The notes under the pieces are model-generated. The model was not told the origin of the DNA and ran no database searches. It worked only from the letters and a program-made list of their open reading frames with translations. A program made the position numbers and the translations under genes. This document shows positions 9,041 to 14,375 of a DNA stretch of 47,088 bases, piece after piece (the first letter of the stretch is position 1; the number at the start of each line of letters is the position of its first letter). Location of the stretch: positions 1 to 47,088 of the forward strand of contig JAQQAL010000030.1 in NCBI GenBank assembly GCA_028532855.1, given 5' to 3'. The DNA is from Candidatus Thalassospirochaeta sargassi (GTDB lineage Bacteria; Spirochaetota; Spirochaetia; UBA9216).

Positions 9041-10219
9041 ATGTCAGAGAACGCATGGAGACGATTACAGGCGCTTAGTAATGAAACAGAAATCTGGTGG
9101 GACTCTTCCCCGCTGGTATGGCCGAACTTTGTTGAGAGTTATATGGCAGGACTTCCTGAGGAAGACCGGGCATGGTTTAAAAATGAGACCGACGGCATGT
9201 TTCTTGATGCTCCGGTTGAAAACTGGGCTTTCAAGGGCTGTACAACCAACCCCCCACTTTCATGGGCTGTTATTCAGAAAAGAACGGACGAATGGGTGGA
9301 AATCATAAAAGAAAAGAGAAAGTCGTACAAAGGTAAATCACAGTACGGTCTCTTCAAGGAAGTTTATCTCGAGACTGTCAAACGGGGTGCAGAAAAACTT
9401 CTTCCGCTCTTTGAGGCTTCCGATGGAAAGCTGGGACATATCTCCGGTCAGGTTGACCCCAATCTTATTAAAGACGAAGCAGCCATGAAAGAAATGGCTG
9501 ATGAGGTTGCTGCACAGAGCCCGAATGTTATGGTTAAGATTCCCGCATCTACTGCAGGTATTCCAATTTTTAAATATCTTGCATCAAAGGGTATTGCTAC
9601 AAATGCAACCACATGTTTTAACGTTCCGCAGATAATGGCTGTAGCTCATTCAGTAGCGGAAGGACGAAAAGAGCATTTAGCCGCCGGTGGAAATCGAAAG
9701 GGCTGGAAGGCTGTTATTACCCAGATGTCTGGACGTCTTGAAGATTCTGCTGCATTTCGCGGATATATAAACAAGATGAATATGGATATCAGTCCGCTTG
9801 AGCTCCGGGTTGCATCCGAGGCTGTTGTGAAGAAAACTGCTAATCTGCTGATCGAACGCGACCTCCCGCTGAAAATGCTTCAGTGTTCAGCTCGTAAGCA
9901 CATTGATTTTGAAGGCAATGTATTCTATCCTCATATTGAGATGTTCGCCGGCGGACCGCTTGTTTATACAGTACCACCTGCAGTAATTGGTGATTACCTT
10001 TACCATTACAGAAACAGAGAGATTGTAAACAATTGGAACAACACACCCGATGCAGCTGTTATGGATAAACTACTTCAGGTGCCGTATTTCAAGAAAAGCT
10101 ACGAAGAAGACGGATATGCCGTTGAACAGTTTGACGAAATTACTTCATTGAAGGAAAATGCAGCTGTATTCTCTGCTGCTACTAACGACATGATTGATTT
10201 CGTCGGAAAATTCGTTTAG
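9041..10219 (+). CDS. transaldolase-family protein
   Basis: A 392-residue class I aldolase of the transaldolase family, longer than the classic 310-320 residues or the 220-residue fructose-6-phosphate aldolases. A Trp-rich N-terminal segment of about 60 residues precedes the GCTTNPPLS motif (66-74), which matches the T-T-N-P strand of transaldolases. Lys166 in VMVKIPAST is the expected Schiff-base lysine, and NATTCFNVPQ follows. AGGAG is seven bases before the ATG. It is the first gene of a six-gene operon with an RpiB-like isomerase and a split transketolase, so it likely transfers or releases a three-carbon unit from an unusual phosphorylated sugar. Its substrate is not known. Confidence 0.8.
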   Translation: MSENAWRRLQALSNETEIWWDSSPLVWPNFVESYMAGLPEEDRAWFKNETDGMFLDAPVENWAFKGCTTNPPLSWAVIQKRTDEWVEIIKEKRKSYKGKSQYGLFKEVYLETVKRGAEKLLPLFEASDGKLGHISGQVDPNLIKDEAAMKEMADEVAAQSPNVMVKIPASTAGIPIFKYLASKGIATNATTCFNVPQIMAVAHSVAEGRKEHLAAGGNRKGWKAVITQMSGRLEDSAAFRGYINKMNMDISPLELRVASEAVVKKTANLLIERDLPLKMLQCSARKHIDFEGNVFYPHIEMFAGGPLVYTVPPAVIGDYLYHYRNREIVNNWNNTPDAAVMDKLLQVPYFKKSYEEDGYAVEQFDEITSLKENAAVFSAATNDMIDFVGKFV

Positions 10220-10237
10220 ACGAACTGGAGGAAAAAT

Positions 10238-10678
10238 ATGAAAGTTGCAGTTGGTTGTGACCCCAATGCATCGGAGCTTAAATTAACAATTATCGATCTG
10301 CTCAAAGAGCTGGGACATGAGGTAAAAGATTTCGGCAGTGAAGATCCTATTTACCCTAATGTTGCTTTCACTGTTGGTGAAAGTGTGGCATCGGGCGAAT
10401 ATGAAAGGGGAATCCTACTCTGCGGAACAGGAATAGGAATGAGCATTGCTGCTAATAAAGTGCCTGGTGTCTATGCTGCACTTTGCAGTGATGCATATTC
10501 AGCAGAACGGGCTATTAAGAGCAATAATGCCAATGTAATGGCGCTCGGCGCATTTACTGTGGGCCGTGAACTTGCAAAAACAATGGTTAAGGTATGGATG
10601 GATTCGAGATGGGAAACAGGAACCCGTTCCGAACCTAAGTATCAGGCTATAGTTGATTACGCAGAGGGTAAGAAATAA
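10238..10678 (+). CDS. RpiB/LacAB-family sugar-phosphate isomerase
   Basis: A 146-residue aldose-ketose isomerase of the ribose-5-phosphate isomerase B family. Cys62 in LLCGTGIGMSI is the expected catalytic cysteine, followed by the family GTGIG loop. NNANVMALGAF matches the conserved substrate loop. Near the N-terminus the usual Asp-His pair (as in SDHAG) reads CDPNA, so the Asp is kept but the His is replaced, which suggests a substrate other than ribose 5-phosphate. RpiB paralogues act on tetrulose phosphates, allose 6-phosphate, galactose 6-phosphate and sulfo-tetroses. Its stop codon shares one base with the next ATG (TAATG), indicating tight coupling to the transketolase N-half. Confidence 0.82.
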   Translation: MKVAVGCDPNASELKLTIIDLLKELGHEVKDFGSEDPIYPNVAFTVGESVASGEYERGILLCGTGIGMSIAANKVPGVYAALCSDAYSAERAIKSNNANVMALGAFTVGRELAKTMVKVWMDSRWETGTRSEPKYQAIVDYAEGKK

Positions 10679-12484: not shown

Positions 12485-13381
12485 ATGAATAAGAATAAGG
12501 AAATGCTTTCAGGGGTTTTTGCACCTATGTGTACACCCTTTGAAAATGATGAAGTTAATATTTCCGGTTTTGAACAGAATATTAAAACAATGAACTCAAG
12601 CAGCCTTAAGGGTTTCTTTGTACTTGGTACAAACGGTGAGTTCAAAACCGTGTCAGAAACCGAGAGGGTTAAAATACTTGAAACTGCGGTAGGCGCTGCC
12701 GCATCCGACAAGGTAGTTATGGCTGGTACCGGTGTTGAATCGACACGGGAAACAATAAGACTTACAAAACAGGCAGCTGAAATCGGGGTGTCCAGTGTGA
12801 GTCTGTTGATGCCGAACTTTTTTGCGAAGAAGATAGATGATGAAGTTATGATCAATCATATCCTTGAGGTAGCTGATGCCTCACCGATACCTGTTGTTCT
12901 CTATAATAACCCCTCGGTAGCTGCCGGTATAACTATCAGTGAAGCAGTAGTAGAGGCTGTAAGTGTGCATGAGAATGTAGTTGGTGTTAAGGACAGTTCT
13001 AAAGACACATGGTCTGCAAACACAGCATATGACAGCGATGGCTTTTCCGTAATGGCGGGTTCTGCATCATATTTTCTCGACCTGCTTGAGAAGGGTGGAA
13101 CAGGTGGTGTGCTTTCTCTGGCTAACATAATCCCTGATGCCTGCGGTGAGCTTTATAATCTTTATATTGCAGGTAAAAAGGAAGAGGCATATGCTTTGAA
13201 TGAACGACTTGTTTCGCTTAATAAGCTTGTCTCCGGTAAATACGGGGTTGCAGGTGTAAAATATGCGATGGATTATGCTGGATTTGCCGGTGGTGCACCA
13301 AGGCGTCCACTTAAGGCTCTTACTGGTGAGCAGAAAAAATCAGTAGAATCTGATTTGGCTGCAAGCGGTTTCTTTAACTAG
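12485..13381 (+). CDS. DapA-superfamily (class I) aldolase/lyase, third copy
   Basis: A 298-residue DapA-like TIM barrel. LGTNGEFKTV (residues 48-57) is the family loop; Tyr140 (VVLYNNP) and the Schiff-base Lys169 (VGVKDSS) are present. It is the third member of this superfamily within 9 kb. It lies inside the transaldolase/transketolase operon, so it probably handles a keto acid produced or consumed by that pathway, for example pyruvate plus an aldehyde. GGAG precedes the ATG with normal spacing. Confidence 0.82.
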   Translation: MNKNKEMLSGVFAPMCTPFENDEVNISGFEQNIKTMNSSSLKGFFVLGTNGEFKTVSETERVKILETAVGAAASDKVVMAGTGVESTRETIRLTKQAAEIGVSSVSLLMPNFFAKKIDDEVMINHILEVADASPIPVVLYNNPSVAAGITISEAVVEAVSVHENVVGVKDSSKDTWSANTAYDSDGFSVMAGSASYFLDLLEKGGTGGVLSLANIIPDACGELYNLYIAGKKEEAYALNERLVSLNKLVSGKYGVAGVKYAMDYAGFAGGAPRRPLKALTGEQKKSVESDLAASGFFN

Positions 13382-13397
13382 GAAACAGGAGAAAATA

Positions 13398-14375
13398 ATG
13401 GCATATAAGAAAACAGTTATTTTGCCTCAGCCCATTGAGCAGGAGGCAGAGCAGTATCTGCTTGATAACGGCTGCAACCTGATTAAGTGTGATGAATGCA
13501 CCTTTGATGAAGTTGCCGCAAAGCTGCCAGATGCGGAAGCTGTAGTGCTGAGAACCGGGATTAAGTTTACGGATGAATTGATATCCAAGGGTAAAAACCT
13601 CAAGACTATAAGCCGTACAGGCGCTGGTGTAGACAACGTAGACCTGAAATCAGCTACGGAGCATGGGATTATTGTATCTTCAAGCTTGGGTGCTAATACT
13701 TCCAGTGTGGCAGAACATGCTTTGGCTATGATTATGTCTCTGACAAAAAATTTAAAGGTTCTCGATAACCAGGTTCGCAATAAGGGTTTTCGTGTACGGT
13801 ATACTAATCCATCCAATGACATGGGCGGCAAGGTTCTCGGGTTACTTGGGTTCGGTCGTATTGGATCAACTCTTGCTGATTACTGCTATAAATGTTTCGG
13901 ATGTAAGATTGTAGCTTTTGATGAATACCTGCCTGATGAAGTGAAGAAAAACTACGAATCCTGGGTTGAATTTATGGATATGGAGTCCGTATTAAAGCAG
14001 TCTGATTTTGTTTCAATACACGTACCTCTAACTGATGCTACACGTGACTTAATAAATTACGACAGTTTCAAAATGATGAAAAACACCTCTATAATAGTAA
14101 ATACTTCACGGGGAGGCATTATCAATGAGCCTGATCTCGTGAAGGCGCTTACTGAAGGGGAGATTGCAGGTGCAGGACTTGATGTTTTTGACAGTGAACC
14201 TATTGAAGACGACAATCCGCTTCTGCAGATGGAGAATGCCATCCTTACCCCGCATACCGCGGCTCTAACTAAAGAATGTGTTGTGCGAATGGCAATGCAG
14301 GGTGTTGAGAGGGTTGTTGCATTTTTCAACGGTGAAGCGCCTGAAAAGGTTGCCAACCCCGAAGTACTTAAATAA
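13398..14375 (+). CDS. D-isomer-specific 2-hydroxyacid dehydrogenase (phosphoglycerate dehydrogenase-like)
   Basis: A 325-residue NAD-dependent dehydrogenase that interconverts a 2-keto acid and a D-2-hydroxy acid. The Rossmann motif GFGRIG (151-156) and the catalytic triad Arg238 (TSRGG), Glu267 (DSEP) and His286 (TPHTAAL) are all present. It lacks the C-terminal ACT/serine-sensing domain of long SerA proteins. It closes the six-gene operon, 16 bases after the aldolase, so a catabolic role (such as a sugar acid, glyoxylate or hydroxypyruvate analogue) is more likely than serine synthesis. Confidence 0.83.
   Translation: MAYKKTVILPQPIEQEAEQYLLDNGCNLIKCDECTFDEVAAKLPDAEAVVLRTGIKFTDELISKGKNLKTISRTGAGVDNVDLKSATEHGIIVSSSLGANTSSVAEHALAMIMSLTKNLKVLDNQVRNKGFRVRYTNPSNDMGGKVLGLLGFGRIGSTLADYCYKCFGCKIVAFDEYLPDEVKKNYESWVEFMDMESVLKQSDFVSIHVPLTDATRDLINYDSFKMMKNTSIIVNTSRGGIINEPDLVKALTEGEIAGAGLDVFDSEPIEDDNPLLQMENAILTPHTAALTKECVVRMAMQGVERVVAFFNGEAPEKVANPEVLK

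Follow-up and report, generated by a model that had tools for sequence, protein, structure and literature searches.

An operon for a transaldolase, an RpiB-like isomerase and a split transketolase belongs to a larger conserved gene set in Candidatus Thalassospirochaeta sargassi

Organization of the operon

The window analysed here is a 47,088-nucleotide stretch of Candidatus Thalassospirochaeta sargassi (contig JAQQAL010000030.1 of assembly GCA_028532855.1; the genome, G000 below, comprises 3.84 Mb in 53 contigs), and the subject is a group of six genes at positions 9041–14375. They encode a transaldolase-family enzyme (TAL), an RpiB-like isomerase, the N- and C-terminal halves of a split transketolase (TK; halves TKN and TKC), a HOGA-like aldolase of the DHDPS superfamily and a D-2-hydroxyacid dehydrogenase (HADH) (Table 1). 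A preliminary description had presented these genes as a tightly coupled, regulator-flanked operon dedicated to catabolism. All six open reading frames (ORFs) were confirmed, with their coordinates, common + strand and Pfam families as first read; they are separated by 18, −1, −4, 11 and 16 bases and flanked by GntR-UTRA and GntR-FCD regulators, which bears out that description. The TAL had also been called long; it does have 392 residues, yet this is modestly above the 350–370 residues of the Corynebacterium/Neisseria-type transaldolases.

The 247-bp divergent promoter region between the GntR-UTRA gene and the operon holds two direct repeats of TGGCTTATCCACNNTACA, 82 bp apart, and exact copies occur only there. 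The pattern with up to 3 mismatches gave 4 matches, a number equalled in 3 of 100 shuffles and hence weakly above chance, and the repeats are regarded as candidate operator sites. Scans for sigma-70 promoters and terminators returned chance-level hits only.

Active sites of the encoded enzymes

In the RpiB-like protein, the Asp-His, Gln-His and RH..R positions of E. coli RpiB are replaced by Asp-Pro, Ser-Asn and RS..K, as in most DhaKL-linked copies, and close variants of this signature were found in OiaX-linked Rhizobium and Listeria copies. The histidines are kept in housekeeping copies, i.e., those of E. coli, of a clostridial-type genome and of contig C40 of the window genome. The window protein scored 123.9 bits against TIGR01120 (cut-off 138.65) and 138.3 bits against NF051858 (EryI/DerI, cut-off 240), and the sole cut-offs that it passed were those of two broad subfamily models, NF004051 and TIGR00689. 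Its assignment as ribose-5-phosphate isomerase B was therefore rejected, given the replaced active-site residues and the missed TIGR01120 cut-off. The second RpiB histidine serves the ring opening of ribose 5-phosphate, so that its loss would fit an acyclic C4 substrate, and the neighbours of same-signature copies (DhaKL, triosephosphate isomerase (TPI), OiaX or FGGY) point to erythrulose 4-phosphate, suggesting that the window enzyme is an acyclic C4 isomerase rather than a ribose-5-phosphate isomerase.

In the split TK, the residues that bind the cofactor thiamine diphosphate (H26, H66, H100, D155, E160, N185 and H261) are conserved. The TktA positions R358, S385, F434, H461 and R520 (RSFHR) read RGICS in the window enzyme, RSING in DhaKL-linked TKs and RSASR in FGGY-linked TKs; the sulfofructose transketolase motif is RAFDR (PMC11659671), the absence of which led to rejection of the window TK as a SqwGH-type enzyme. 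The best PDB match of TKC, and the closest solved structure, is the split TK of Carboxydothermus hydrogenoformans (1.7e-73; 6yaj/6yak, PMC7661550), which shares the same PP / Pyr+TKC split. However, that enzyme keeps the RSFHR residues (PMC7661550 and our alignment), which the window TK lacks. A maximum-likelihood tree, which contained no experimentally named AptAB and no SqwGH, placed the window TK in a clade (support 100/99) of RpiB-linked split TKs that includes the DhaKL-linked Cryobacterium enzyme (L201) and L179, apart from full-length TKs, from the genome's own housekeeping TK and from FGGY-linked split TKs. With this position and the RGICS motif, the window TK was rejected as a housekeeping transketolase.

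The window genome carries a full-length TK on contig C11 and other split TKs on C12 and C17, further RpiB genes on C40 (an orphan with housekeeping motifs) and C17, and further transaldolase-family genes on C6 and C19. The preliminary description had taken the TK and RpiB for non-housekeeping enzymes, naming as the contrary outcome that they be sole copies grouping with housekeeping enzymes; the other copies, the TK tree and the RpiB motifs all went the other way. On sequence evidence, both enzymes are specialised rather than housekeeping. Of the routes with which that description had compared the operon, the erythritol type fits the RpiB best, whereas the sulfo-TK motif is absent and the proposed link to apiose (AptAB-like) TKs found no support, the window TK being separated from FGGY-linked split TKs in the tree.

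The TAL belongs to the transaldolase family (PF00923, 86.7 bits against a cut-off of 27), and the best Foldseek matches of its AlphaFold model (pLDDT 95.8) are all transaldolases. Mapped to E. coli TalB, the Schiff-base K132 corresponds to K166 and the phosphate residues R181, S226 and R228 are kept as R232, S283 and R285, while the catalytic E96 is replaced by Q137 in all 80 of 80 relatives and F178 by M229 in 79 of 80; owing to these two replacements, the TAL was rejected as a classical TalB-type enzyme.

Among TAL relatives, L052:2156-3379 (G171:C131) lacks the Schiff-base lysine (K to A) and has two FGGY kinase genes and one glyoxalase-family gene as its neighbours; it is possibly repurposed or dead. 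A 35%-identical TAL clade (L046, L065, L071 and roughly 30 more loci of alphaproteobacteria) sits within a PDH-like E1 alpha / E1 beta – TAL – E2 operon, preceded by an RpiR-type regulator and sometimes accompanied by TK, E3, Gph, TIM-barrel and TPI genes, which is apparently an uncharacterised pathway.

A phmmer search of the PDB matched the aldolase to human HOGA1 at 1.6e-50, about 17 orders of magnitude ahead of the next match (6e-33), and alignment to 3s5n showed the G(S/T)NGE motif and the Schiff-base lysine. The aldolase is thus HOGA-type by sequence, with cleavage of a 4-hydroxy-2-oxo acid as its predicted reaction. The PDB matches of the dehydrogenase are McyI (3e-63), PGDH (7e-63) and glyoxylate reductase (9e-48).

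Conservation of the operon and of a second gene block

The order TAL-RpiB-TKN-TKC is kept in Spirochaetes RBG_16_67_19 (L061; 62, 66, 60 and 55% identity), and RpiB-TKN-TKC is conserved in at least 7 further genomes, without the window-type transaldolase in L169–L172; in L175 and L194 the genes for the HOGA-like aldolase and the dehydrogenase accompany it. This conservation of gene order exceeds chance. Genome G103 carries HOGA-HADH-RpiB-TKN-TKC, G233 carries LIV-GntR-ADH1-ADH2-UPF0261-HOGA-creatininase-SDR-HADH (ADH, alcohol dehydrogenase), G134 carries UPF0261-HOGA-creatininase-SDR-HADH, and G004, of the same genus as the window, carries GntR-ADH2-UPF0261-HOGA-creatininase-SDR. A second locus of G004 (TKN-TKC-HADH-GntR//MFS-rubrerythrin-LIV binding protein) matches part of the window locus at 84–89% and is without the aldolase gene. 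In G033 the run reads LivF-LivM-LivH-ADH1-GntR-UPF0261-HOGA-SDR-HADH-RpiB-TKN-TKC; it spans two contigs whose sequences overlap within the HOGA-like gene by about 40 near-identical bases, the adjacency being deduced from this overlap rather than assembled.

The genes of the G033, G233, G134 and G004 runs all have window counterparts within 9041–27791. The HOGA-like aldolase and HADH belong to a second conserved block together with the LIV transporter, Zn-ADHs, UPF0261 protein, creatininase-family hydrolase and SDR, which is tied to RpiB-TK because the two are fused into one run in G033. The operon is therefore half of a larger conserved pathway, the second block lying at 17141–27791. The six genes had been described as a self-contained unit, a view that found no support, as the pathway continues to approximately 27.8 kb, possibly even to 34.4 kb; similarly, the six genes are real but their order is not fixed, the DapA-type gene lying beside UPF0261 in G004.

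Some runs combine the module with other genes. A 440-aa protein that matches TAL_FSA weakly (34.7 bits) adjoins RpiB-TKN-TKC at L169:11379-12701 (G483) and perhaps stands in for the window-type TAL. Choline-kinase-like, HAD and HisC-like aminotransferase genes lie near TAL/RpiB/TK in two genomes (L061:9555-13431; L264 and L136 of G134), where another upper pathway seems to be joined to the TAL-RpiB-TK module. That TAL is linked to the HisC-like aminotransferase (L136, L061, L066) was considered and rejected, as the window genome has just a 28% relative, located elsewhere.

Table 1. Features of the operon and of the adjoining conserved gene set in the window
Feature	Position	Strand	Size and evidence
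GntR-UTRA regulator, divergent from operon	8014..8793	-	PF00392 + PF07702
Candidate operators, 18-nt direct repeats TGGCTTATCCACNNTACA	8894-8911, 8976-8993		repeat search
Transaldolase-family enzyme (TAL)	9041..10219	+	392 aa; PF00923, 2.2e-24
RpiB-like isomerase, GCDPNA / KSNNAN / RSEPK type (tetrulose-type signature)	10238..10678	+	146 aa; PF02502, 6.7e-46; signature comparison and tree
Split transketolase, N-terminal half (TKN)	10678..11541	+	287 aa; PF00456
Split transketolase, C-terminal half (TKC)	11538..12473	+	311 aa; PF02779 + PF02780
DHDPS-superfamily pyruvate aldolase, HOGA-like	12485..13381	+	298 aa; PF00701
D-2-hydroxyacid dehydrogenase (HADH; PGDH / McyI / glyoxylate-reductase-like)	13398..14375	+	325 aa; PF00389 + PF02826
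GntR-FCD regulator, downstream of operon	14534..15265 (alternative start 14558)	+	84% identical, syntenic in L262 (G004)
MFS transporter	15262..16443	-	syntenic, 71% identical in L262; relative beside LIV copy in L234
LIV-type ABC transporter (binding protein at 17141-18403; LivG, LivF, LivM, LivH)	17141..21799	+	51-66% identical genes beside pathway genes in L233, L234
Zn-dependent alcohol dehydrogenase 1 (ADH1)	21825..22859	+	conserved in pathway runs
GntR-FCD regulator	22914..23621	+	69% identical, syntenic in G004; family assigned from its resemblance to the GntR-FCD gene at 14534
Zn-dependent alcohol dehydrogenase 2 (ADH2), distantly IolM-like	23621..24694	+	NF041097 213.5 bits, below cut-off 450
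UPF0261 / Tm-1-like protein	24697..25944	+	PF06792 + PF23189; adjoins HOGA-like gene in 5 genomes
Creatininase-family hydrolase, distantly IolN-like	26020..26946	+	PF02633; NF041098 72.4 bits, below cut-off 245
SDR dehydrogenase	27021..27791	+	69% identical in L175; in HOGA-SDR-HADH-RpiB-TK run of G033
Zn-ADH 3, IolO-like TIM-barrel protein (30420-31340), TctCBA-type transporter (TctC at 31362-32372)	29336..34420	+	linkage in L169 and Thermus plasmids

Beyond the second block, the ADH3 and TIM-barrel protein of the window have relatives beside RpiB-TKN-TKC in L169 (71 and 75% identical), and TctCBA occurs on Thermus plasmids together with a Tm-1-like gene and a creatininase-family gene of 57% identity; the block at 29336–34420 probably holds further pathway genes. 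Membership in IolM, IolN and IolO was rejected, the scores being 213.5, 72.4 and 23.1 bits against curated NCBIfam cut-offs of 450, 245 and 300.

Proposed function and alternatives

By sequence comparison, the pathway genes form a conserved set of LIV, Zn-ADHs, SDR, UPF0261, creatininase-like, HOGA-like, HADH, RpiB-like, split TK and sometimes TAL. The reading that we prefer, at about even confidence, is that the operon forms the carbon-rearranging lower half of a dedicated catabolism of an oxidisable sugar, sugar acid or polyol via C4/C5 intermediates. In the upper block, dehydrogenases would oxidise the substrate, which would be opened or cleaved, with the creatininase-family enzyme as a candidate for hydrolytic opening. 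The HOGA-like aldolase would split a 4-hydroxy-2-oxo acid into pyruvate and an aldehyde, and HADH would handle a C2/C3 acid. The RpiB-like enzyme would interconvert an acyclic C4 ketose and aldose, most likely D-erythrulose 4-phosphate and D-erythrose 4-phosphate, and TK and TAL would transfer C2 and C3 units, respectively.

Several observations weigh against this proposal. There is no sugar kinase in the operon or the conserved set, leaving the source of a phosphorylated tetrulose unexplained; G033, G103, G483 and G134 yielded no Dak1, the window has no DhaK/DhaL, and of the Dak1 genes of G000, located solely on C34 and C11, none has RpiB or TK alongside. Of the four canonical polar residues that orient the phosphate, three are missing from the window TK, a poor fit to ordinary phosphosugar traffic, an objection softened by the absence of two of the same residues from DhaKL-linked TKs. 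The runs of G033 and G103 have no TAL, which is therefore not essential to the pathway, and no RpiB ortholog was found in G004 or G016, both fragmented assemblies, despite much of the upper block being present.

In its parts the pathway is similar to known routes for four-carbon sugars and sulfo-sugars, matching none exactly. By module, the nearest described systems are of the tetritol/gol type (Cryobacterium, Listeria). The tetritol and tetrulose-phosphate modules (DhaKL-TPI-RpiB) share the RpiB active-site type of the window, that of Cryobacterium pA10BH1 also has a split TK of the window clade, and the Listeria gol-type operon unites RpiB, SDR, TAL and TK. However, the tetrulose modules contain a DhaKL kinase and TPI, both absent from the window, the Listeria operon has a 218-aa FSA-like TAL and a full-length TK, and none of these modules has HOGA-like, UPF0261 or creatininase-like partners. 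The Listeria gol pathway was reportedly described by Monniot et al. 2012, and the tetritol pathway of M. smegmatis by Huang et al. 2015. The Listeria record L202 (NZ_CP030101.1), filed as a plasmid in PLSDB, is 2.9 Mb long and, judging from this size, is the chromosome. At the D-apionate/OiaX locus of Rhizobium (L203), the RpiB has part of the altered motif, and the apionate route is said to make erythrulose phosphate upstream of an L203-type RpiB (Carter et al. 2018), but this locus has OiaX, a four-carbon acid kinase and TPI, with no transketolase or HOGA-like aldolase. A literature search gave nothing usable on Tm-1-like proteins with creatininase, the Listeria gol operon or apiose TK.

By composition, the nearest described system is the sulfoquinovose cluster of Faecalicatena, a bifurcated sulfo-TK/sulfo-TAL pathway in which a split TK, an RpiB-like isomerase and a Gln-type transaldolase occur together (PMC11659671). 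There a split TK is followed by an RpiB-like C4 isomerase and two transaldolases in one cluster, and the second transaldolase candidate, F2, has a catalytic Gln together with Thr, as has the window TAL.

The absence of a kinase from the conserved set and the eroded TK phosphate motif would allow for a carboxylate analogue of bifurcated sulfoglycolysis, our foremost alternative, which we consider unlikely. The upper block would yield a non-phosphorylated 5-keto-hexuronate (HOCH2-CO-(CHOH)3-COO-), and no kinase would be needed. In the TK branch, a C2 unit would be removed in each of two steps, between which the RpiB-like enzyme would isomerise the C4 aldehyde acid, and glyoxylate would be left; in the TAL branch, a C3 unit would be removed, leaving tartronate semialdehyde, and the HOGA-like aldolase and glyoxylate-reductase-like dehydrogenase would process the C2/C3 acids. 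That TK and TAL cleave a carboxylated non-phosphorylated ketose, with UPF0261 as an upper-block enzyme, in a new carboxylate counterpart of sulfoglycolysis, is likewise a doubtful proposition. Consistent with this scheme are the HOGA-like and glyoxylate-reductase-like partners, the change of the TK head-group motif to RGICS, an enzyme logic as in SqwGH/SqwI/SftT (PMC11659671), and an upper block whose Zn-ADH, creatininase-family and TIM-barrel proteins belong to the same superfamilies as Thermotoga IolM/IolN/IolO, although they score far below the curated cut-offs. Against it, the RpiB signature equals that of DhaKL-linked tetrulose-phosphate contexts, and the TAL phosphate residues are intact, though these possibly serve the acceptor. 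The IolM/IolN/IolO enzymes of T. maritima reportedly yield keto-sugar acids (Rodionova et al. 2013, Thermotoga inositol pathway).

A variant of the sulfo-sugar (sulfo-TK/sulfo-TAL) pathway would account for the gene combination shared with Faecalicatena, but it is very unlikely: the TK motif is RGICS rather than RAFDR, and the partners are a HOGA-like aldolase, a creatininase-like hydrolase and UPF0261, none of them described for that cluster. The Faecalicatena cluster further has a sulfoquinovose (SQ) isomerase, mutarotase, SQase and sulfoacetaldehyde reductase, whereas none of the window ORFs, which were not searched with dedicated models, could be recognised as a candidate sulfoquinovosidase, SQ mutarotase or SQ isomerase.

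That TAL, TK and RpiB are spare or constitutive enzymes of the non-oxidative pentose-phosphate pathway is highly improbable. All three belong to pentose-phosphate families; however, at other loci the genome has a full-length TK, further TALs and an orphan RpiB that carries housekeeping motifs, the active sites of all three operon enzymes are altered, and the operon has regulators on both sides and is in linkage with catabolic genes. Copy number, trees and motifs already contradict this explanation, which was therefore rejected.

An apiose-type route, in which an AptAB-like TK acts on a branched ketose phosphate, could draw on the split TK and on an FGGY kinase at 5721–7028, yet it is the least probable, since the TK, in a tree that contained no experimentally named AptAB, stands apart from FGGY-linked split TKs, including the apiose-like Rhizobium locus L204 (TIM barrel, TK, FGGY), the kinase is cut off from the operon by two opposite-strand genes with no close FGGY/TIM-barrel/TK unit, and RpiB plays no part in the apiose route. 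The FGGY-type kinase itself has just 435 aa and no FGGY_C match, and lies between opposite-strand DHDPS-family genes at 4711–5586 and 7090–7998.

Whichever substrate is processed, the conserved and testable gene set joins three families that are poorly understood: UPF0261/Tm-1-like proteins, Gln-type long transaldolases and split TKs without the phosphate motif. UPF0261, the bacterial counterpart of a domain of the tomato resistance protein Tm-1, is described as uncharacterised in the sole dedicated paper found (PMC5028733); the substrate, once identified, would give it a function and would show whether TK/TAL chemistry serves another sugar class besides sulfo-sugars.

Further observations

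The Thermus plasmids pTF28b and pTF21c (L199, L200) carry creatininase-family, Tm-1-like, class II aldolase, TctCBA, ADH and TIM-barrel genes, adjoined by nitrate respiration genes. At L174:7990-9294, the gene for a RuBisCO-like protein lies directly 5′ of an RpiB gene of 60% identity, and UPF0261 is encoded close by. An Hsp70-like ORF lies inside the catabolic region of the window at 27962–29212 and is kept after the SDR gene in G004. Finally, a repeat-containing, lipoprotein-like ORF occupies window positions 720–2276, its repeats appearing ankyrin-like by eye.

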